Assembly (NCBI RefSeq): GCF_039541115.1
Contig: NZ_BAABFP010000008.1
Location: 434,001 to 498,000 of the forward strand
Origin: Angustibacter luteus
GTDB lineage: Bacteria; Actinomycetota; Actinomycetes; Actinomycetales; Angustibacteraceae
DNA: 64,000 nucleotides
Reading direction: 5' to 3'
Shown here: in pieces, positions 47,288 to 57,049 of the stretch
Numbering within the stretch: position 1 is the stretch's first letter
Layout: every line of letters starts with the position of its first letter
Notes under the pieces: model-generated
Database searches by the model: none
What the model saw: only the letters and a program-made list of their open reading frames with translations
What the model was told of the DNA's origin: nothing
Position numbers and translations under genes: made by a program

Positions 47288-48703
47288 GTGTCCACGCACC
47301 ACCCCCGTTCCACCGACCGTCCCCAGCTGCGTCAGCGTCCGGTGACCGTCTCCGCCGACAACGCCTTCTCCGCTCTCGGCCTGAACGACCGGCTGGTCGA
47401 GCGGATGGCCCGCGACGGCATCACCGAGCCGTTCCCGATCCAGTCCGCGACGATCCCGGACGCCCTGGCCGGACGCGACGTCCTCGGCCGCGGCCAGACC
47501 GGCTCCGGCAAGACCCTCGCCTTCGGGCTGCCGATGCTGGCCCGCCTCGAGGGCCGCAAGGCCAACGCCCGCAAGCCTCGCGCCGTCATCCTGGTGCCGA
47601 CCCGCGAGCTGGCCATGCAGGTGCACGACGCCCTGGAGCCGCTCGCCCACGTCATCGGCGTCCGGATCAAGCTGGTCGCCGGCGGCCTGCCGTACCACAA
47701 GCAGATCAGCGCGCTCGAGCGCGGCGTCGAGGTCCTCGTCGCCACCCCGGGCCGGCTGACCGACCTGGTCGACCGCGGCTCGTGCGACCTGTCCGAGGTC
47801 GAGGTCGCCGTCCTCGACGAGGCCGACCACATGTGCGACATGGGCTTCCTGCCCGCCGTCACCGAGCTGCTCGACCACACGCCCAAGGGCGGCCAGCGGC
47901 TGCTGTTCTCGGCGACGCTCGACGGGGACGTCGACAAGCTGGTCCGCGGCTACCTCACCGACCCGGTGACCCACTCCACCAGCGACGCCACCGCGTCCGT
48001 CACCACCATGGAGCACCACGTGTGGCTGGTGAAGCCGGCGCACAAGGCCCCGGTGACCGCCGCGCTCGCGTCCCGCGAGGGCCGCACCGTCGTCTTCGTC
48101 CGCACCAAGCTCGGCGCCGACCGCATCGCGCTGCAGCTGCGCGAGCAGGGCGTGCGCGCCGCGGCGCTGCACGGCGGCCTCGCCCAGGGCGCCCGCAACC
48201 GCACGCTCGCCGCGTTCAAGGACGGGCACGTCCCGGTGCTGGTCGCGACCGACGTCGCGGCCCGCGGGATCCACGTGGACGACGTCAGCCTCGTCGTCCA
48301 GGTCGACCCGCCCGCCGACCACAAGGACTACCTGCACCGCTCCGGTCGCACGGCCCGCGCGGGTGGCACCGGCACCGTCATCACCCTCGCCCTGCCGCAC
48401 CAGCGCCGGATGGTCGACCGGCTGACCGCCGCTGCGGGCGTCGACGCAACGCCCGAGCAGGTCTCGCCGCACGACGACGCACTGCTGCAGGTCACCCGCG
48501 GTGCCGTGCCCAGCGGTGTCGTGGTCGCCGAGCGCGACCTGTTCCCGCCGCGGCGCGCCGATCGCACGGACCGCCCCCGCCGCAGCGGTGGCTATGCCGG
48601 ACGTCGCGAGGGTGGCCCGCGTCAGGGTGGCCCGCGTCGTGAGGGCGGGTACGCCGGACGTCGTGACGGCGCCGCGCCGCGCGGTCCGCGCCAGCCGCGC
48701 TGA
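47288..48703 (+). CDS. DEAD-box RNA helicase
   Basis: 471 residues. Q motif (GITEPFPIQSATIPDALAGRD), motif I GQTGSGKT, Ia PTRELAMQV, II DEAD in AVLDEADHMCDMGF, III SAT, V LVATDVAARGIHV, VI HRSGRTARAG. A basic Arg/Gly-rich tail (GGYAGRREGGPRQGG...) probably binds RNA. Likely a cold-shock or ribosome-assembly helicase. GTG 47288 lacks an SD sequence. GTG 47342 (VTVSADNAF) is an alternative. A long leader suggests RNA-level autoregulation. An inverted-repeat terminator follows. Confidence 0.93.
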   Translation: MSTHHPRSTDRPQLRQRPVTVSADNAFSALGLNDRLVERMARDGITEPFPIQSATIPDALAGRDVLGRGQTGSGKTLAFGLPMLARLEGRKANARKPRAVILVPTRELAMQVHDALEPLAHVIGVRIKLVAGGLPYHKQISALERGVEVLVATPGRLTDLVDRGSCDLSEVEVAVLDEADHMCDMGFLPAVTELLDHTPKGGQRLLFSATLDGDVDKLVRGYLTDPVTHSTSDATASVTTMEHHVWLVKPAHKAPVTAALASREGRTVVFVRTKLGADRIALQLREQGVRAAALHGGLAQGARNRTLAAFKDGHVPVLVATDVAARGIHVDDVSLVVQVDPPADHKDYLHRSGRTARAGGTGTVITLALPHQRRMVDRLTAAAGVDATPEQVSPHDDALLQVTRGAVPSGVVVAERDLFPPRRADRTDRPRRSGGYAGRREGGPRQGGPRREGGYAGRRDGAAPRGPRQPR

Positions 48704-48716
48704 CCCCCACCCCCCG

Positions 48717-48736
48717 GTGATCATGCACGTTCGCCC
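48717..48736 (+). repeat. Intergenic repeat copy
   Basis: GTGATCATGCACGTTCGCCC, 14 bp after the helicase stop, flanked by C-rich sequence. A direct copy follows at 48749. Confidence 0.9.
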
Positions 48737-48748
48737 ACCCCACCACCC

Positions 48749-48808
48749 GTGATCATGCACGTTCGCCCCGCCTCCGCCCCCGGACGCGGGGCGAACGTGC
48801 ATGATCAC
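48749..48808. terminator. 23-bp perfect inverted repeat between convergent genes
   Basis: One repeat copy at 48749-48771 and its exact reverse complement at 48786-48808 enclose a 14-nt loop. The stem would be very stable on either strand, and it sits between the convergent helicase and GGDEF/EAL genes, so a bidirectional terminator or RNA-protecting hairpin is likely. Confidence 0.85.
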
Positions 48809-48846
48809 CGCGGGGGGTGGGTGTGGGGGGTGAGGGCTGGGGGCTT

Positions 48847-51171
48847 TCAGGAGGCGGGGGCGCCTCGGCGGTTCTCGCCCCAGGTCAGCAGGGGCACCTG
48901 CTCGACGGACGGCCGGCCGAACAGCCAGCCCTGCGCGTAGTCGCAGCCCATGTCCCGCAACAGGTCCGCCTGGGTCTGGCACTCCACGCCCTCGGCGGTG
49001 ACCGAGTACCCGTGGGCGTGCGCGAGCTGGACGATGGCGCGCACGATCGCGCTCGGCCGCGGCGACCCGTCCAGCCGGCTGACGAACGCGCGGTCGATCT
49101 TGATGAACGAGACGGGCAGGTCCTGCAGGTACGCGAGCGCCGAGTAGCCCGTACCGAAGTCGTCGATGCCGGTGCGGACGCCGACCGCGGCCAGCCGGTG
49201 CATCGCGTCCTGGGCCGCTGAACCGCCGGGCACCAGGCTGGTCTCGGTCAGCTCGAGCTGCAGGGACGTCGGCGCCACGCCGTACTGGTCCAGCAGCTGG
49301 TGCACGTGCTCCTCGAAGCCCGGCTGCCCCAGTGTCCGCGCGGACACGTTCACCTGCACCGTCAGGTCCAGCCCGGCGGCGCCCCACTCGGCGAGCTTGG
49401 TGACGCCCTGCTCGAGCATGTAGCGGTCCAGCTCGACGATCAGGCCGGTGTCCTCCGCGACGTCGATGAAGCCCTCGGGCAGCAACAGCTGGCCGTCGTC
49501 GTCCCGCAGCCGCATCAGCGCCTCGACGCCGATGACCTTCTCGCCGTCCAGGCCGACGATCGGCTGGTACACCGCGAGCAGCCGGTCCCGCTCGATCGCC
49601 ACCCGCAGCCGCCGTTCGGCGAGCATCCGCGACTCGGCCTCGGCCCGCAGCGCCCCGTCGTACAGGGCGACCCGGTCCCGGCCGACGCTCTTGGCCCGGT
49701 ACATCGCGAGGTCGGCCTCGCGGAACAGCTCGCTGCCCGACCGGCCGGAGTGCGAGGCGACCGAGACGCCGATGCTGCCGGTGCAGACCAGGTCCAGCCC
49801 GTCGATCTCGAGGGGCTGACGCACCTCCTCCAGCAACCACCGGGCGACGTCGCAGGCCGCCTCGACGCCGGCGACCCAGGGCAGCAGCACCACGAACTCG
49901 TCCCCACCGAGGCGGGCCACCGTGGGCGAGCAGTCGCTGACGTCGTGCAGCTCGAGCGCCGCGGTGAGCCGTTGCGCGACCGCCACCAGCAGGGCGTCGC
50001 CCACGGTGTGGCCGAGCGTGTCGTTGACCAGCTTGAACCGGTCGAGGTCGAGCAGCAGGACGGCGGTCAGCGGCCCCAGGTCGTCGGGCAGCTCGGACGC
50101 GGCGTCGGCGTCCCCCGGGTCGAACACGTCGTTCGGGTCCGGCAGCGTCGCGATGCTGCGGCGCAACAGGTCGTCCAGCACGCTGCGGTTGGCCAGACCG
50201 GTGAGCCCGTCCCGCGCGGCCAGCCGCGCCAGCTCACGCTCGGCGCCACGCTGGCTGGTGACGTCGACCGTCGCACCGAAGACGCAGGTGACGACGTCGC
50301 CCTCCACGATCGCCCGCGACCAGGCGACCAGCTCGCGCCAGGTGCCGTCGGGGTGGCGCAGCCGCAACGTCTCGAGCAGCCCGTCCTCGCGGTCGGCGAC
50401 GTCCGCGGCGAGGTCCTCGTGCCGGCGGTCCTCGGGGTGCAGCAAGGACTCCCACAGCGACATCGAGGGGCGGGTGGTCCGCGGGTCCAGTCCGCACAGC
50501 TCGAACATCTCCGGCGACCACTGCAGGTCGTTCGTCAGGACGTCCCAGCGCCACTGCCCGGCGCCGGTCAGGGTGGACGTCGCGGACAGCCGCAGCCGCT
50601 CACCCGCCAGGTCCGTCTCGATCCGGGAGCCGACCATGGCCGGCGCGGCCGAGAAGGCGAGCACCGACAGGACGTCGCAGTCCTCCTGGCTCACCGCGTG
50701 CACGGTCGGGGCGAGCGCGACCAGCACGCCGAGCGACACCGCGCCGTAGCGCAGTGGCGCCAGGGCCGCGGACCGGATGCCCAGCATCGCGAACAGCTCC
50801 GGCGCCAGGGTCGACTCGCCGCGGGTGTCCTGGCACAGGACCGGCTCGCCGGAGCGCAGGCACCGCTCGGTCAGCGTGCCCAGCACCTCGAACCGCCGAC
50901 CGACGCGCATGCCCGGCGGGAGGTCGCCGGCCGCCGCCGCGATCCGCAGGCCGCCCTCGTCCAGCAACGGCACCAGGACCGCGCAGCCCAGGATCCGGTG
51001 CGCCTCCTGCGCCAGCGCCGCCGCCATGTCCGCGACACCGGGACCAGAGCGCGCGATGTGCTGCTGCGCCTCGACGACGGCCTTCAGCCAGGTGGGAGGC
51101 TGCGGGTCCGAGGCCGCGTCGGCGCCCGCGATCGACTGCTCCCGGAGGGCATCTCGCCACCCGTCGACCAT
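48847..51171 (-). CDS. GAF-PAS-GGDEF-EAL cyclic-di-GMP protein
   Basis: 774 residues. A GAF domain (about 30-190: VADMAAALAQEAHRILGCAVLVPLLDE), a PAS domain (about 200-310: WSPEMFELCGLDP), GGDEF (intact ARLGGDEFVVLLP, no RxxD inhibitory site visible) and EAL (VIGVEALMRLRDDDG, LELTETSL, DDFGTGYSALAYL, KIDRAFV). Both catalytic signatures look intact, so cyclase, phosphodiesterase or both are possible. No membrane segment. AGGAGGGG lies 6 nt before ATG 51171, preferred over 51207. It follows cysH by 110 bp in the opposite position and is not coupled to it. Confidence 0.9.
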   Translation of the reverse strand: MVDGWRDALREQSIAGADAASDPQPPTWLKAVVEAQQHIARSGPGVADMAAALAQEAHRILGCAVLVPLLDEGGLRIAAAAGDLPPGMRVGRRFEVLGTLTERCLRSGEPVLCQDTRGESTLAPELFAMLGIRSAALAPLRYGAVSLGVLVALAPTVHAVSQEDCDVLSVLAFSAAPAMVGSRIETDLAGERLRLSATSTLTGAGQWRWDVLTNDLQWSPEMFELCGLDPRTTRPSMSLWESLLHPEDRRHEDLAADVADREDGLLETLRLRHPDGTWRELVAWSRAIVEGDVVTCVFGATVDVTSQRGAERELARLAARDGLTGLANRSVLDDLLRRSIATLPDPNDVFDPGDADAASELPDDLGPLTAVLLLDLDRFKLVNDTLGHTVGDALLVAVAQRLTAALELHDVSDCSPTVARLGGDEFVVLLPWVAGVEAACDVARWLLEEVRQPLEIDGLDLVCTGSIGVSVASHSGRSGSELFREADLAMYRAKSVGRDRVALYDGALRAEAESRMLAERRLRVAIERDRLLAVYQPIVGLDGEKVIGVEALMRLRDDDGQLLLPEGFIDVAEDTGLIVELDRYMLEQGVTKLAEWGAAGLDLTVQVNVSARTLGQPGFEEHVHQLLDQYGVAPTSLQLELTETSLVPGGSAAQDAMHRLAAVGVRTGIDDFGTGYSALAYLQDLPVSFIKIDRAFVSRLDGSPRPSAIVRAIVQLAHAHGYSVTAEGVECQTQADLLRDMGCDYAQGWLFGRPSVEQVPLLTWGENRRGAPAS

Positions 51172-51281
51172 GGGCGCCCCTCCTGTCCCAGACCACGTGA
51201 GGCTCATCGTGGCACGGGCTCAGGGGCGGTGTGTGGCTTTCGGCTATACGCCATGCGGGTGAATGAGAGCGCGCTCTGCAA

Positions 51282-51977
51282 TCAGATGTGGATCCCGCAC
51301 TCCACCTTGTCGGTGCCCGCCCAGCGGCCGGACCGCGCGTCCTCGCCGGGGGCCACGAGCCGGGTGCACGGCTGGCAGCCGATCGAGGCGTAGCCCTGCA
51401 GCACCAACGCGTTGCGCAGCAGGCCGTGCTCGACCTGGTAGCTCTCGACGTCCTCGTCGGTCCAGGTGGCCAGCGGGGCGACCTTGAGCATGTCGTGCTT
51501 GTCGTCCCAGGACAGCACCGGTGTGCCGGCCCGGGTCGGCGACTCGTCCCGGCGCAGGCCGGTCACCCACGCGTCGTAGGGTTCCAGCGCCTCGGCCAGC
51601 GGCGCGACCTTGCGCAGGAAGCAGCACAGCCCGGGGTCGCGGTCGTGCAGCTTCGCGCCGTACTCGGCGTCCTGCTCTGCGACGGTCTGCTTGGGCAACA
51701 CGTCGATGACCGTGACGTCCAGCTGGCCCTGCACCCGGCCGCGCATGCGCAGCGTCTCGGCGAAGTGGTAGCCGGTGTCCAGGAACAGCACGTCCACCCC
51801 GGGCCGCACCTGCGAGACCAGGTGCGAGGTCACCGAGTCCTGCATGCTCCCGGCCACCGCCAGGTTGCCCCCGGTCGCCTCGACCGCCCAGCGGACGATC
51901 TCGAGCGCCGGGGCGCCGTCCAGCTCCTTGGCGGCCTCGGCCACCCGCTCGCGCAGTGGTGCCGTGATGGTGCTCAT
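51282..51977 (-). CDS. cysH: Adenylylsulfate/phosphoadenylylsulfate reductase
   Basis: 231 residues. VAGSMQDSVTSHLVSQV is the PP-loop substrate site, LDTGYHFAETL follows, and the C-terminal ECGIHI carries the catalytic Cys. The paired cysteines LCCFLRKV and GCQPC are the four [4Fe-4S] ligands that mark the assimilatory APS-type reductase of actinobacteria. Makes sulfite from activated sulfate, which SirA then reduces. The ATG overlaps the sirA stop by 4 bp. Confidence 0.94.
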   Translation of the reverse strand: MSTITAPLRERVAEAAKELDGAPALEIVRWAVEATGGNLAVAGSMQDSVTSHLVSQVRPGVDVLFLDTGYHFAETLRMRGRVQGQLDVTVIDVLPKQTVAEQDAEYGAKLHDRDPGLCCFLRKVAPLAEALEPYDAWVTGLRRDESPTRAGTPVLSWDDKHDMLKVAPLATWTDEDVESYQVEHGLLRNALVLQGYASIGCQPCTRLVAPGEDARSGRWAGTDKVECGIHI

Positions 51978-53662
51978 GACAACGCCTCCTCCGGCGCGCG
52001 AACGGCCCAGGTGGCGAACCGCTCCCCGCCGGCGCGCTCGGCGAGGTAGCGGCGGACGACGCGCTCGACGTAGTCCGGCAGCTCCTCGGCGGTGACCTTG
52101 AGCCCGCGGACCTTGCGGCCGAAACCGGGGTCGAGCCCGAGCGCGCCGCCCAGGTGCACCTGGAAGCCGGGCACCTGCTCGCCGTCGTCGTCCGTGACGA
52201 TCTGGCCCTTCAGCCCGATGTCGGCGACCTGGATGCGGGCGCACGAGTTCGGGCACCCGTTGACGTTCACCGTGATCGGGCCGTCCAGCTGCTCCGCGAC
52301 GTCCGCGAGGCGGGTCTCCAGCTCGCCGATGGTCGCCGTCGCCAGGCCCTTGGTCTCGACGATCGCCAGCTTGCAGTACTCGATGCCGGTGCAGGCCATG
52401 GTGTGCCGGCGGAACAGGCTCGGCCGCGCGTCCAGCCCGAGCTCGCCGAGGCCCTCGACGACGGCCTCGACCGCGTCGGACGGCACGTCCAGGACCAGCA
52501 GCTTCTGGTGCGGCGTCAGCCGGATCCGCTGCGAGCCGTGGGACTCGACCAGATCGGCCAGCTGCGTCAGCGTCTCACCCGAGACCCGTCCGACGTGCGG
52601 CGCGGCACCGATGTAGTGCAGTCCGTCGCGCTGCGCGTGCACACCGATGTGGTCGCCCGGGTCGGCGGTCGGCTCGGGCGCCGGGCCGTCCAGCAGCGCC
52701 CGACCCAGGTACTCGGTCTCCAGCACCTCGCGGAACCGCTCCGGGCCCCAGTCCGCCAGCAGGAACTTGAGCCGCGCCTTGTGCCGCATCTTGCGGTAGC
52801 CGTAGTCGCGGAACACCGAGGTGACTCCCGCCCACACGTCGGGGACGTCGTCCAGCGGGACGAAGGCCCCGAGCCGGACGGCGAGCCGCGGGTTCGTCGA
52901 CAGGCCGCCACCGACCCACAGGTCGAAGCCCGGCCCGTGCTCGGGGTGGACGACCGCGGTGAACGCGATGTCGTTGATCTCGTGCACGACGTCGTTGGTC
53001 GCCATGCCGGTGATCGCGGACTTGTACTTGCGCGGCAGGTTGCTGAACGCCGGGTCGCCGACGTACCGGCGCTGGATCTCCTCGATCGCCGGCGTCGGGT
53101 CGATGATCTCGTCGGCGGCGATACCGGCCACCGGACTGCCCAGGATCACCCGCGGGCAGTCGCCGCAGGCCTCGGTGGTCAGCAGACCGACACCCTCGAG
53201 CCGCTCCCAGATGGCCGGCATGTCCTCGACCCGGATCCAGTGCAGCTGGATGTTCTGCCGGTCGGTGAGGTCGGCGGTGCCGCGGCCGTACCGGACGGAC
53301 ACCTCGCCGATCGTGCGCAGCTGCTCGGTGGTCAGCGCGCCACCGTCCACCCGCACGCGGAGCATGAAGTACTTGTCCTCGAGCTCCTCAGGCTCCATGG
53401 ATCCGGTGCGGCCGCCGTCGATGCCGGGCTTGCGCTGGGTGTAGAGCCCCCACCAGCGGAACCGGCCGTGCAGGTCGTCCGAGGTGATGGCGTCGAAGCC
53501 CTCGACCGCGTAGACCTGCTCGATCCGGGCGCGGACGTTGAGCGCGTCGTCCTCCTGCTTGAAGCGCTCGTTGGCGTTCAGCGGGGTGCGGTCACCGAGA
53601 GCCCACTGCCCTTGGGGCGCAGGCGGTCGGCCGGCGCGGGAGGTGGGGATCGTCGCAGTCAT
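51974..53662 (-). CDS. sirA: Ferredoxin-type sulfite reductase
   Basis: 562 residues. Two ferredoxin-like halves (RVDGGALTTEQLRTIGEVSVRYGRGTADLTDRQNIQLHWI and the second half from about 340) surround the siroheme/[4Fe-4S] site with CTGIEYCKLA and NGCPNSC supplying four Cys. Tyr in WWGLYTQRKPG and Cys in EACGDCP match the Tyr-Cys pair of the mycobacterial enzyme. Reduces sulfite to sulfide. Its Shine-Dalgarno (GAGGA) is buried in a hairpin downstream of a Cys-ending leader peptide, suggesting cysteine-sensing translational control. Confidence 0.94.
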   Translation of the reverse strand: MTATIPTSRAGRPPAPQGQWALGDRTPLNANERFKQEDDALNVRARIEQVYAVEGFDAITSDDLHGRFRWWGLYTQRKPGIDGGRTGSMEPEELEDKYFMLRVRVDGGALTTEQLRTIGEVSVRYGRGTADLTDRQNIQLHWIRVEDMPAIWERLEGVGLLTTEACGDCPRVILGSPVAGIAADEIIDPTPAIEEIQRRYVGDPAFSNLPRKYKSAITGMATNDVVHEINDIAFTAVVHPEHGPGFDLWVGGGLSTNPRLAVRLGAFVPLDDVPDVWAGVTSVFRDYGYRKMRHKARLKFLLADWGPERFREVLETEYLGRALLDGPAPEPTADPGDHIGVHAQRDGLHYIGAAPHVGRVSGETLTQLADLVESHGSQRIRLTPHQKLLVLDVPSDAVEAVVEGLGELGLDARPSLFRRHTMACTGIEYCKLAIVETKGLATATIGELETRLADVAEQLDGPITVNVNGCPNSCARIQVADIGLKGQIVTDDDGEQVPGFQVHLGGALGLDPGFGRKVRGLKVTAEELPDYVERVVRRYLAERAGGERFATWAVRAPEEALS

Positions 53663-53764
53663 GAGGGTCCTCGTCGAGGTGGTGGCACGCAGACGAGGGA
53701 GCCCAGCTCTGGGTCGAGGGCACGGTCGCCGCGCGCGGGGTGACGACGTCGTCGTCCGGGCGGG
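53663..53764 (-). promoter_or_regulatory. sirA leader with SD-sequestering hairpin
   Basis: Between the leader peptide stop and the sirA ATG. GACGAC-GAC-GTCGTC folds at 53742-53756, and CCTCGTC (53698-53692) pairs with GACGAGG (53675-53669) over a 16-nt loop. The second stem includes the GAGG of the sirA ribosome-binding site. Ribosome stalling on the leader's Cys codons could change this fold. Confidence 0.55.
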
Positions 53765-53845
53765 TCAGCAGCCGCGACAGATCATGCTGCGCGTACGACC
53801 GAGGTCGACGTGGCGTCGACTCACGAGGTACGGCTGCGCAGGCAT
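53765..53845 (-). CDS. Cys-ending leader peptide of the sulfur-reduction operon
   Basis: 26 residues: MPAQPYLVSRRHVDLGR then TRSMICRGC. This matches the short actinobacterial putative leader peptides with a [R]RHVDLxR core and terminal Cys residues that precede sulfur and cysteine genes. The last codons are TGT CGC GGC TGC TGA, two cysteine codons within four. It lies 102 bp before sirA on the same strand. Known models for such leaders are cysteine-responsive attenuation. The frame continues upstream of the ATG but without conservation. Confidence 0.8.
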   Translation of the reverse strand: MPAQPYLVSRRHVDLGRTRSMICRGC

Positions 53846-53988
53846 CACCCGTCCATGGTCGCACAGCGTCCACCCCTTGGCACAGTCTCTCAGGATGTGG
53901 ACAACCGGGACGGCCTCCGCTAGGCGCTTGTGCTCAACCCCGCCCCGGACGTGTCGATATGTCACGTGAGGAAGAGAGAGGCACGAGC

Positions 53989-55554
53989 ATGATGGACGAC
54001 GTCTCCGCGGTGGCAGCCCGGCTGCTGGAACGCGGCCAGTCGGGTGAGCACGCCGAGGTGGTGGCGGAGTCGGAGCGGCTCCTGCGCGAGCCCACCGGCG
54101 ACCTCGTCGACGGTCCCGCCGGTCTGCACTTCGCGCGCGCCGTGGCCTACATGAGCGGCGGGGACGAGCACGCGGCGCTGGCCGCCGCCGAGCTGATGAT
54201 CAAGGCGGCGGAGCGCGAGGAGAGCGCGGGCTGGCTGTCCTGCGGGTTGTCCCTGCGCGCCGTCCTGCGGGTCGAGATGGGCGAGCAGGACGTCGCCGAG
54301 CACGACCTCGAGACGGTGCTGCGCGACCTGGTCGACGCCGAGGACGCGCTGCTGCGTGGCGTCGAGGACCCGTGGCTGGCCAGCAACGCGCACACCGGCA
54401 TCGCCCTGCCGTTCCACAGCCTCCGCCTGTACGAGCTCGCGCTGCCGCACTACACCGCGGCGTACGAGGCCAGCACCCGTGGCTCGACCGAGACCGGAGC
54501 GCCCGCGATGTGGCTGCTCAACCTCGCCGAGGTCGAGCTCGACTGGGCGCTGGAGCTCTACCGCGTCGAGCTGGTGGCCGACGCGGAGAAGCACAGCCGG
54601 GACGCGCTGGAGTACGCCGTCCGCGCCGGGCAGGCCGCCGCCGGACCGGACGCCGAGCGCTGGCGCACCAGCGCGGGCATCCAGGAGTGCTGCGCCCGGA
54701 TCAGCTGCGGCGAGGACGAGCCCGCACTGGGCGAGATCCTCACGCGGCGGGAACGGGCCAAGGTCCGCGGAGCGACCGCCGACCTGCACTGGTCCGCGCC
54801 GTTCGTCGCGGTCGCGCTGGGCCGGGTCGGCCGCAGCGAGGAGGCCCTGGACCTGCTGCGCGAGACCCTGGCCGAGGCGAACGCGCGGGCGGCCTGGATC
54901 CAGCTCGCCGCGCTGCAGCACACCCGGGCCTACCTGCTCGCCGAGGCCGGGCTGCCCGGGACGGCCGAGACCCTGGAGTACGGCCAGACGCTGGCGCACG
55001 CGTTGTGGCGGCAGCGGCTGCGCACCCTGCACGTGGCCGAGACCATGCGCTCCTTCGACACGCTCCGGCACGCGCACGACCAGGCCGCCCGTTCCGCCCT
55101 GGTCGACCCGCTCACCGGCATCGCGAACCGGCGGGCCTTCGACGACGCCGTCGCCTCCCACGCCGCGCTCGAGCCGCGACGCCCGGTGGCCGCGCTCGTG
55201 ATCGACCTCGACCGGTTCAAGGACGTCAACGACACCCACGGGCACGACGCCGGGGATGCGCTGCTGCGCACCGTCGCCGGCGCGCTCAGCGCCAGCGTGC
55301 GCGAGGGCGACCTCGTCGCCCGGCTGGGCGGCGACGAGTTCGCGGCGTTGCTGCCCGGCGCGGACGCCGTTGCGGCACAGCGGGTCGCGCAGCGCATGGT
55401 CGACGCCGTCGACGCCCTGCCGGACAGCCCGGCGACCGCCAGCATCGGCGTCTGCTCGACACCGGCGGCCGCCCTGCCCGGTGCGATCACCCGCGCGGAC
55501 CAGGCCATGTACGCCGCCAAGCGAGCCGGCGGCAACCGGGTCACCGCGGGCTAG
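53989..55554 (+). CDS. TPR-GGDEF diguanylate cyclase
   Basis: 521 residues. Helical repeats of TPR type (about residues 1-350), a coiled linker (HVAETMRSFDTLRHAHDQAARSALVDPLTGIANRRAFDDAV) and an intact GGDEF domain (Gly447-Phe451). Arg438-Glu-Gly-Asp441, five residues before it, is the RxxD inhibitory site, so product inhibition is expected. Soluble. GAGAGG precedes ATG 53989, and ATG 53959 is possible. Divergent from the sirA leader. Overlaps the subtilase end by 14 bp. Confidence 0.9.
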   Translation: MMDDVSAVAARLLERGQSGEHAEVVAESERLLREPTGDLVDGPAGLHFARAVAYMSGGDEHAALAAAELMIKAAEREESAGWLSCGLSLRAVLRVEMGEQDVAEHDLETVLRDLVDAEDALLRGVEDPWLASNAHTGIALPFHSLRLYELALPHYTAAYEASTRGSTETGAPAMWLLNLAEVELDWALELYRVELVADAEKHSRDALEYAVRAGQAAAGPDAERWRTSAGIQECCARISCGEDEPALGEILTRRERAKVRGATADLHWSAPFVAVALGRVGRSEEALDLLRETLAEANARAAWIQLAALQHTRAYLLAEAGLPGTAETLEYGQTLAHALWRQRLRTLHVAETMRSFDTLRHAHDQAARSALVDPLTGIANRRAFDDAVASHAALEPRRPVAALVIDLDRFKDVNDTHGHDAGDALLRTVAGALSASVREGDLVARLGGDEFAALLPGADAVAAQRVAQRMVDAVDALPDSPATASIGVCSTPAAALPGAITRADQAMYAAKRAGGNRVTAG

Positions 55555-57049
55555 CGCCCAGCCTCGTCGCCGCGGCGACGACGTCCACCAGGCCGGCGCC
55601 CTTGTCGAACGAGCTCTGGTAGCCAGCGACGGCCTGGTACGGCGCACCGTCGGAGTAGCGGTGCGCGGTGGCCTTCAGCGCGTCCTCGATTTCGGCCGGC
55701 GTCGCGGTCGGGTCGGCCTGGAACAGCTGGGCCACGATGCCCGCGATGTGCGGCGCGGCCATCGACGTCCCGCTGATGGTGTTGAAGGTGCCGACGTCCA
55801 GCGGTCCGGGGCCGTTGACCGGGTCCAGTCCCGTCGAGCAGATCGGCAGGTATGGCCGGCAGGACGAGGTGATGTTCTCGCCCGGAGCAGAGACGTCCGG
55901 CCAGGTCGAGGTCTGGGCCGCGGCACCGCGCGAGCTGTAGTCGCTGACCGTGCCCTCGCGGGTGCCGGTGTTCTGGTCGTTGTAGGACGCCACGGAGACG
56001 ATGCCACCGGTCGGGTCCTGGCCGGGCGGGTTGGTCAGGGACGTCGTCCCGTCACCACCGTCGTTGCCCGCGGCCCACACCGTCACCACGCCCTCGGCCG
56101 CCAGCGCGCGCTGCAGCTTCACGGTCGCCGAGTTCGGGTCGAACGCACCGCCGCCGGTCGGTCCGTACGAGTTGTTGGTCACCTTGATCGGCGGGCAGGT
56201 GGTGGCTGGAACGCCTGCGCCGCAAGGGTGTTCGTGGTTCTCCAACACCCAGTTGAGGGCCGAGTCAGCTCCGACGATGAGCAGCACGGCGCCGGTGGAG
56301 ATGTCGACGAGCTTCGCGCCGGGCGCCGCGCCCTGCAGCCGGCGGCCGTCGGTCGTGGTGGTCGGCCTTCCGGCGACGATGCCGTTGACGTGCGTGCCGT
56401 GGCCACCACCGGACAGCGTGTCGGTGTCCACCGCCGTCGGGACGTCGAGGATGCAGCTCGTGCTCTGGGTGGACTCGTCGAGGCAGACCGACTTCAGGCT
56501 GCGCACCACCGCCGTACCGCCGCTCGGCTCCTGCAGGAACGGGTGCGTCGGGTCGACGCCCGAGTCGATCACGGCGACGCTGACCCCGCGGCCGTCCAGC
56601 GCGCTGCCGTTGGCCCCGTTCAGCGTCTGCACCGCCTCCGCTCCGCGGGTGGCCTGGTGCGAGTGGTCCAGGGAGAACGCGATCGGCTGGTCACCCTCGA
56701 CGTAGGTGACGCCCGGCCGGCTGCGCACGGCCGTGATCTGGCTGGTCGTGCCCCGCGCGACCGCGACGCCGATCTTGTCGAAGGTGGTGACCAGGTGCAG
56801 CCCGGACGCCGACACCGCCTGGCGGGCGGCTGCGACGTCCGTGCCGTGCACGAGCACCGACTGCGGCAGGGTCGCCGACACGGTCGTCAGCTGGTGGGCC
56901 AGCCACGGCTGCAGCGGCGCGGGCGTGCTGGCCGCGCCAGCCGGGGCCGCGCTCAGCCCGAGGGGCACCAGCGCGGCGGCCAGCAGGAGCGTCCCGGTGC
57001 GGGTCCGTCGTCCGGTGGGTCCGTGTGCTGTTCGGTTGCTCGTCCTCAC
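55541..57049 (-). CDS. Secreted S8 (subtilisin-like) serine peptidase
   Basis: 502 residues. A Sec signal (about 1-40: a basic start then TLLLAAALVPLGLSAAPAGAA), an inhibitor-like prodomain (VARGTTSQITAVRSRPGVTYVEGDQPIAF) and the catalytic domain with Asp162 (AVIDSGVD), His217 (GGGHGTHVNG) and Ser429 (SGTSMAAPHIAG). The oxyanion Asn is in WAAGNDGGDG. No C-terminal anchor, so it is likely released. GGAGG precedes the GTG at 57049. It stands alone. Confidence 0.92.
   Translation of the reverse strand: MRTSNRTAHGPTGRRTRTGTLLLAAALVPLGLSAAPAGAASTPAPLQPWLAHQLTTVSATLPQSVLVHGTDVAAARQAVSASGLHLVTTFDKIGVAVARGTTSQITAVRSRPGVTYVEGDQPIAFSLDHSHQATRGAEAVQTLNGANGSALDGRGVSVAVIDSGVDPTHPFLQEPSGGTAVVRSLKSVCLDESTQSTSCILDVPTAVDTDTLSGGGHGTHVNGIVAGRPTTTTDGRRLQGAAPGAKLVDISTGAVLLIVGADSALNWVLENHEHPCGAGVPATTCPPIKVTNNSYGPTGGGAFDPNSATVKLQRALAAEGVVTVWAAGNDGGDGTTSLTNPPGQDPTGGIVSVASYNDQNTGTREGTVSDYSSRGAAAQTSTWPDVSAPGENITSSCRPYLPICSTGLDPVNGPGPLDVGTFNTISGTSMAAPHIAGIVAQLFQADPTATPAEIEDALKATAHRYSDGAPYQAVAGYQSSFDKGAGLVDVVAAATRLGASPR

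Follow-up and report, generated by a model that had tools for sequence, protein, structure and literature searches.

A candidate cysteine-responsive leader peptide with a single conserved UGU codon upstream of sirA-cysH in Angustibacter luteus

The leader peptide that precedes sirA-cysH in Angustibacter luteus is, on balance, probably a cysteine-responsive, cis-acting attenuator in which a single UGU sensor codon stands behind a conserved nascent peptide; its output step, which we infer, perhaps involves Rho. Usual leader-peptide attenuators contain many codons of the sensed amino acid, and here one codon seems to carry the signal. At this position the synonym UGC is avoided, even though a single tRNA should read either codon, and a peptide block is kept alongside.

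Results

The leader and the genes behind it

All coordinates refer to the window, that is, the whole stretch of 64,000 nucleotides that was analysed. Residues of the leader core are numbered from its histidine (H = 0). The features of the leader and of the genes that follow it are:

53765..53848, minus strand: leader peptide ORF with the stop codon TGA at 53767-53765, supported by an ungapped alignment with a congener (L015)
53777..53827, minus strand: conserved peptide core, residues -5 to +11 (LVSRRHVDLGRTRSMIC), from positional conservation in 131 distinct leaders
53777..53779, minus strand: conserved UGU codon for Cys at H+11, the proposed sensor codon, from codon counts across leader sets
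53768..53770, minus strand: second Cys codon (UGC), not conserved, Arg in the congener L015
53855..53860, minus strand: -10-like hexamer GACCAT (weak; not TANNNT), 6 nt before GTG 53848, from the sequence and a family trend
51974..53662, minus strand: sirA, ferredoxin-type sulfite/nitrite reductase of 562 aa, with profile matches to both halves of nitrite/sulfite reductases
about 51282..51977, minus strand: cysH, PAPS/APS reductase family, with a PAPS reductase domain and a start inferred from the sequence

The leader ORF precedes sirA-cysH on the minus strand, and the cysH ATG overlaps the sirA stop codon. The full translation of the leader is (M)MPAQPYLVSRRHVDLGRTRSMICRGC, and its C-terminal part reads ..LVSRRHVDLGRTRSMICRGC*. 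An earlier note on this DNA had described a 26-residue peptide, and the ORF 53845..53765 (minus strand) does encode it, including its RRHVDLGR core and C-terminal MICRGC*. That reading starts at ATG 53845 (26 codons). GTG 53848 (27 codons) is equally possible and perhaps the better start, because from there the leaders of the window and the congener align without gaps (MMPAQPYLVSRRH / MTPVQPLLVSRRH) and the weak -10-like GACCAT lies upstream. Among 130 leaders, with alternative starts counted, TANNNT precedes a start codon by 6 nt in 19 and by 7 nt in 33; at that distance the window has GACCAT only. Smaller peaks at 21 and 28 nt may be explained by alternative in-frame starts. A scan for a sigma-70 consensus promoter found none near the leader.

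The leader matches the putative leader peptide model NF042934 with E = 1.1e-4 and 21.8 bits (21.6 bits with the GTG start), below the curated cut-off of 27, and the Ms4527A leader model NF042936 with E = 0.0026 and 17.3 bits, below the cut-off of 45. It shares with the former the R-x-[HA]-[VIM]-D-L-x-R core, the Cys at +11 and a short ORF before a sulfur gene, and with the latter the position before a SirA/NirA gene. Judging from relatives that precede sirA in L015, in L014 and in named sirA loci, we take the leader peptide to be real and not a chance ORF.

A family of leaders before sulfur genes

Next, we asked where else such leaders occur. In the A. luteus genome itself, a search gave 12 matches at E <= 10, of which the best three are short ORFs of the leader type: one before an NADPH-dependent FMN reductase (L001, 33 bits), one before a protein with a cysteine dioxygenase domain (L002, 22.2 bits; 1515, minus strand), and the sirA-cysH leader of the window (L003, 20.1 bits in this search). 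Beyond this genome, a sample of the class has NF042934 matches in 249 of its 393 genomes (83 of 123 genera), and a sample of the phylum has them in 49 of 396 genomes.

Among the relatives, sirA was detected in 32 of the 59 searched. Pattern scans of the fetched loci found the sirA leader only in L014, L015 and the window itself, besides L031 and L037. These last two carry ORFs of the type RRHHVDLLRTASAxCR/S upstream of sirA, which are similar to the leader with the register shifted by one residue. We also observed short Cys-rich ORFs at sirA loci of the same order that have no HVDL core (..PGCRCR*, ..MCSCQCCCR* and ..RCRCR* in L020, L026 and L027), and these use TGT and TGC mixed.

The genes 3' of 131 distinct leaders fall into 28 clusters, in the small ones of which some picks of the downstream ORF are doubtful. 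Their annotated representatives belong largely to sulfur metabolism: sirA, rhodanese/sulfurtransferase, cysH, cysteine synthase and SsuE FMN reductase, as well as dimethylsulfone monooxygenase, sulfatase, cysteine dioxygenase, TauD and a CysO-like ThiS protein. It is well supported, by sequence comparison, that the leader belongs to an actinobacterial peptide family linked with sulfur and cysteine genes, and because of this membership control by cysteine availability is its likely function.

The cysteine dioxygenase cluster follows 10 of the 131 leaders, L002 of A. luteus among them. Since the family thus includes leaders before a cysteine-degrading enzyme, simple derepression on cysteine shortage fits badly, and at loci of this type the polarity of control may differ. 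The leader also stands before cysteine dioxygenase-type genes in the Streptomyces-like loci L061, L070 and L074.

One Cys codon is conserved, and it is UGU

The earlier note had taken two Cys codons for the sensor. Although the leader has both, conservation is confined to the first (UGU, 53779-53777), and the second (UGC) is Arg in the congener, whose leader (..PLLVSRRHVDLGRTRSMACRGR) ends in MACRGR and has a single Cys. The leader of L014, from the same family, is ..RLVRRRHVDLGRTRSSICRPC*. A run of contiguous Cys codons is absent: two residues separate the two Cys of the A. luteus leader, and the congener has only one. Comparison of the sequences therefore does not support a sensor of two Cys codons and points to one conserved UGU.

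Pooled over 131 distinct leaders, the codon at +11 is TGT in 125, TGA in 2, AGC in 2, TGC in 1 and GGG in 1. These pooled rows are distinct over -2 to +11, with L130 and four hits missed by the motif left out. In the first set, which came from a motif search, TGT occurs in 62 of 68 distinct rows (the rest being TGA 2, AGC 2, TGC 1 and GGG 1), and the four missed hits, located by HMM coordinates, all have TGT at +11. The second set was read after the prediction had been written down, and TGT stands at +11 in 78 of its 78 distinct leaders, which cover 19 family codes (77 of 77 usable distinct rows, plus the separately located L130). It comprises 79 hits by HMM coordinates in genomes outside the first set, with one identical core dropped; 60 loci were retrieved after the prediction and 19 earlier, the codons of the latter being read only later. 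A third set consists of 80 named sirA loci among the matches listed, mostly from Streptomyces with one from Aeromicrobium; 77 of them carry the leader no more than 600 nt away, and UGU stands in every one of these 77 leaders (26 distinct). Finally, 30 loci of the NF042936 (Ms4527A) type gave TGT in 28 of 29 distinct rows and CCC in one; here frames with TG at +11 were preferred, a choice that is blind to TGT versus TGC.

Cys codons elsewhere provide the controls. Away from +11 there are 103 UGC and 10 UGU in the leaders that are not poly-Cys, and 45 UGC and 39 UGU in the poly-Cys leaders, where UGU is thus also common. The downstream coding sequences, picked by a GC3 rule from all rows with repeats included, have 346 UGC and 40 UGU. 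Fisher tests of UGU at +11 against the controls give 1e-54 and 3e-82, with relatedness ignored. Selection by HMM or motif favours a Cys at +11, yet it is blind to TGT versus TGC. At the R, H, V, D and L of the core the codons show free synonymous variation. The Ser codon at +8 departs from the background (AGC in 72 of 84), and AGY there may possibly be a consequence of the Ser/Gly/Thr alternation at this position. At Asp +2 we noted GAT in 38 of 131 leaders, against 8.6 expected from the downstream genes.

Two sirA-type leaders depart from UGU at +11, one with UGC and one with GGG. As a separate observation, the three HIDL leaders before a gene with the motif ..FRGRIGxDxRSGHYAV.. (L095, L111 and L053) all have AGC (2) or TGA (1) at +11; the representative of this protein cluster has no Pfam match at 1e-6. 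Likewise, the leader before a cysM-type gene in L100 stops at +11, its TGA taking the place of the TGT found in its relatives.

Cysteine sensing as we propose it does not alone explain a UGU at a fixed position. The choice of an isoacceptor is ruled out: the A. luteus genome has a single tRNA-Cys gene (GCA) among its 45 tRNA genes, and therefore isoacceptor charging cannot account for the preference. On the other hand, the U could be kept for a reason of the RNA and not for decoding, be it base pairing, a site for a protein or nuclease, or a polymerase pause; a single nucleotide is at issue, and a constraint at the nucleotide level would fix the U equally well. We consider such an explanation very unlikely. 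The third base has no common partner, and we rejected pairing as the cause for this reason: 57 of 125 leaders lack any partner above 0.5, in 31 the pairing is with downstream sequence, and the commonest pairing offset inside the leader was seen 7 times among the 125. Moreover, the flanking bases vary and UGU is kept before unrelated genes, with 25 of the 28 clusters having UGU throughout.

The conserved peptide block ends at the UGU codon

In the 131 distinct leaders a block of 17 residues, from -5 to +11, is conserved and ends in one Cys. Its information content is 3.97 bits at -5, 4.26 at -2, 3.4 at 0 and +1, 4.3 at +2, +3 and +5, 3.0 at +8 and 4.14 at +11, part of this conservation being imposed by the selection of the leaders with a regular expression or HMM. 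Outside the block the information does not exceed 1.1 bits between -12 and -6, or 1.0 at +13, so conservation stops at the UGU.

Arrest peptides, of which TnaC and SecM are examples, have conserved residues directly upstream of one codon. The same layout is seen here, with conserved residues directly upstream of the proposed stall codon, a pattern to which the motif selection contributes. With the UGU in the A site, the conserved block would occupy the upper part of the exit tunnel.

Could any Cys codon do, if it is slowed by uncharged tRNA-Cys, with the peptide and the identity of the codon being irrelevant? This is how a plain attenuator of the poly-Cys type would work, and there is some reason to consider it: related mycobacterial leaders carry runs of Cys codons (Cys-Cys-Cys occurs in 15 of the 131 distinct rows), and mycobacterial leaders are reported to respond to cysteine in the available text of PMC9031893, which cites Canestrari 2020. 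Against it, exactly one Cys between H and the stop is found in 46 of 131 leaders, in 43 of them at +11, the peptide block is conserved, and UGU is fixed at +11 and not elsewhere. The single-Cys leaders and the arrest-peptide layout together argue against a simple counting of Cys codons, and we regard the poly-Cys explanation as unlikely.

The region between the leader and sirA

To describe the possible output step we used the following features:

53663..53764, minus strand: region from the leader stop to sirA, 102 nt, C-rich and G-poorer by base composition, a candidate Rho loading region
53669..53675, minus strand: GACGAGG arm containing the sirA SD GAGG (53672-53669), from the sequence and folding
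53692..53698, minus strand: CCTCGTC arm of a 7-bp stem, within chance and not conserved
53742..53756, minus strand: small hairpin GACGAC-GAC-GTCGTC just past the leader stop, with the 5' arm GACGAC kept in L014 and L015

The earlier note had proposed a translational attenuator, in which stalling that depends on cysteine would take place in the leader and open a 7-bp stem masking the sirA SD, the GAGG 6 nt before the sirA ATG. The pairing is literally present and the SD is predicted to be buried. On the other hand, dinucleotide shuffles that hold the SD constant produce a perfect stem of at least 7 bp covering the GAGG in 210 of 2000 cases, the fold of the region has z = -0.15, and the CCTCGTC arm is without a counterpart at the aligned place in L014 and L015. 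The stem also starts 78 nt past the UGU, too far away to lie within the footprint of a ribosome that stalls at this codon. Since the stem is within chance, not kept in these two nearest relatives and this far beyond the UGU, control through it is unsupported.

The folding model gives a similar picture. In the window the SD is closed in all three states, with an unpaired probability of 0.00 in free RNA, 0.01 with a ribosome at the UGU and 0.01 with one at the stop. Burial of the SD across 89 family members is at the level of shuffles (unpaired 0.318 versus 0.310). Over 92 members the accessibility is 0.25 in free RNA and 0.31 with a ribosome at either the UGU or the stop; comparing UGU with free RNA, the SD opens by more than 0.1 in 25 and closes in 8, and a weak general opening of the SD through leader translation is conceivable. 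Of the 92, 8 are more open with the ribosome at the UGU than at the stop and 9 are less so, which gives the UGU position no advantage. L014 behaves as the stem model would have it, with an open SD (0.26) for the ribosome at the UGU and a closed one (0.00) for the ribosome at the stop, but L015 is the opposite (0.15 and 0.24). While the cysteine genes of M. smegmatis are described as translation-attenuated in the accessible text of PMC13236596, we think it improbable that this stem does so here. Separately, we spotted by eye, in three sequences, that the 3' arm of the small hairpin (53747-53742) could pair with the SD region.

A simple consensus scan for an intrinsic terminator (hairpin plus U run) between leader and gene found none in 53600-54000, and a classical attenuator with such a terminator was rejected on this ground. 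No Rfam family scored above its gathering score in 48000-56000. The five matches below threshold belong to miRNA and lncRNA families of a low-complexity kind; the best, 40.7 bits against a gathering score of 100, is a miRNA family with low scores on both strands at 48738-48822, probably a repetitive stretch.

Rho is a possible output step, as suggested by base composition. In the window the first 90 nt after the leader stop have C 0.48 and G 0.29; in the family the 80 nt past the stop have C 0.441 and G 0.280, with C exceeding G in 123 of 131, compared with 61 of 131 for the region 100-200 nt upstream. Coding sequences show the same excess by small margins, the counts being 109 of 131 and 93 of 130. 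At these loci, other 5' regions have C 0.384 and G 0.311, with C above G in 66 of 97 (p = 4e-8, uncorrected), and sirA regions without this leader show it in 17 of 20. In L014, G exceeds C after the leader stop. The C bias is partly generic to 5' regions, so Rho is only suggested.

Proposed mechanism

According to the attenuator that we favour, the leader would make the expression of sirA-cysH depend on how much Cys-tRNA is available. In a shortage, a ribosome would pause with UGU as its A-site codon. Two things may draw out this pause: the conserved nascent chain inside the exit tunnel, which would act as it does in arrest peptides, and the weaker wobble pairing by which the only tRNA-Cys (GCA) reads UGU. 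In the least certain part of the scheme, the paused ribosome may keep Rho off the C-rich RNA that follows the leader and thereby allow sirA-cysH to be transcribed; with ample cysteine the ribosome would move on and terminate three codons later, and the C-rich RNA could then be exposed to termination. A point against a single UGU is that classical attenuation theory, in the available text of PMC1183508, gives low sensitivity for one sensor codon.

Potentially, the idea can be taken further: these leaders may be arrest peptides throughout the actinobacteria, in which only the wobble-decoded UGU, and not UGC, ties the pause to Cys-tRNA, and in which one codon replaces a run. We put this forward tentatively and think it more doubtful than the attenuator itself. 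If one codon does carry the signal, a single synonymous change would probe how wobble decoding acts together with the nascent chain in sensing, and many Actinomycetes sulfur genes would belong to one predicted regulon recognisable from its sequence.

Comparison with known systems

The model NF042934 (cis_reg_atten) is like the A. luteus leader in its core and in the kind of neighbour, and its last position is the Cys at +11 in the full-length hits that we read. They differ in that the window leader scores below the cut-off, and the model, being at the protein level, is silent on codons. The leader also resembles the arrest peptides TnaC and SecM in that conserved residues abut one codon; in the A. 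luteus leader stalling is only predicted.

The Ms4527A leaders (NF042936) share the RRHVDLxR core and the Cys at +11 as UGU (in the 28 of 29 distinct rows given above), and they precede a SirA/NirA gene in L093 and L094. Their Cys-rich tail is of the KRVCSCCCLP type, whereas that of A. luteus is RTRSMICRGC. Ms4527A appears to be the small ORF before nirA/Msmeg_4527 in the accessible part of PMC4633059. The poly-cysteine leaderless attenuators of mycobacteria (Canestrari et al. 2020, as cited in the available text of PMC9031893 and PMC13236596) are similar in having a short, Cys-ending leader before sulfur genes, and much of the family of the A. luteus leader may have a leaderless start. In contrast to them, the A. 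luteus leader has no run of Cys codons and one conserved Cys.

Seliverstov et al. 2005 (PMC1262725, as far as its available text goes) describe candidate cys leader peptides and suggest Rho for the mycobacterial ones. Those leaders are likewise actinobacterial, stand before cys genes and lack a terminator hairpin; unlike ours, they are defined by runs of Cys codons near the stop. The uORFC-8-2 before cysS in Rhodobacterales (PMC8632094, accessible part) is also a Cys-codon uORF, but with two tandem Cys codons, UGC dominant and an intrinsic terminator.

In the portions of the literature available to our search there is no statement of a fixed UGU in these leaders, and Canestrari 2020 might mention the codon. 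From the accessible text of PMC4633059, PMC9031893 and PMC13236596 it is already known that this family of leaders exists, that it is linked with cysteine genes and that there is a response to cysteine in M. smegmatis. As far as our searches show, the novelty lies in a UGU that is fixed at a single place within a conserved peptide block, one Cys sufficing.
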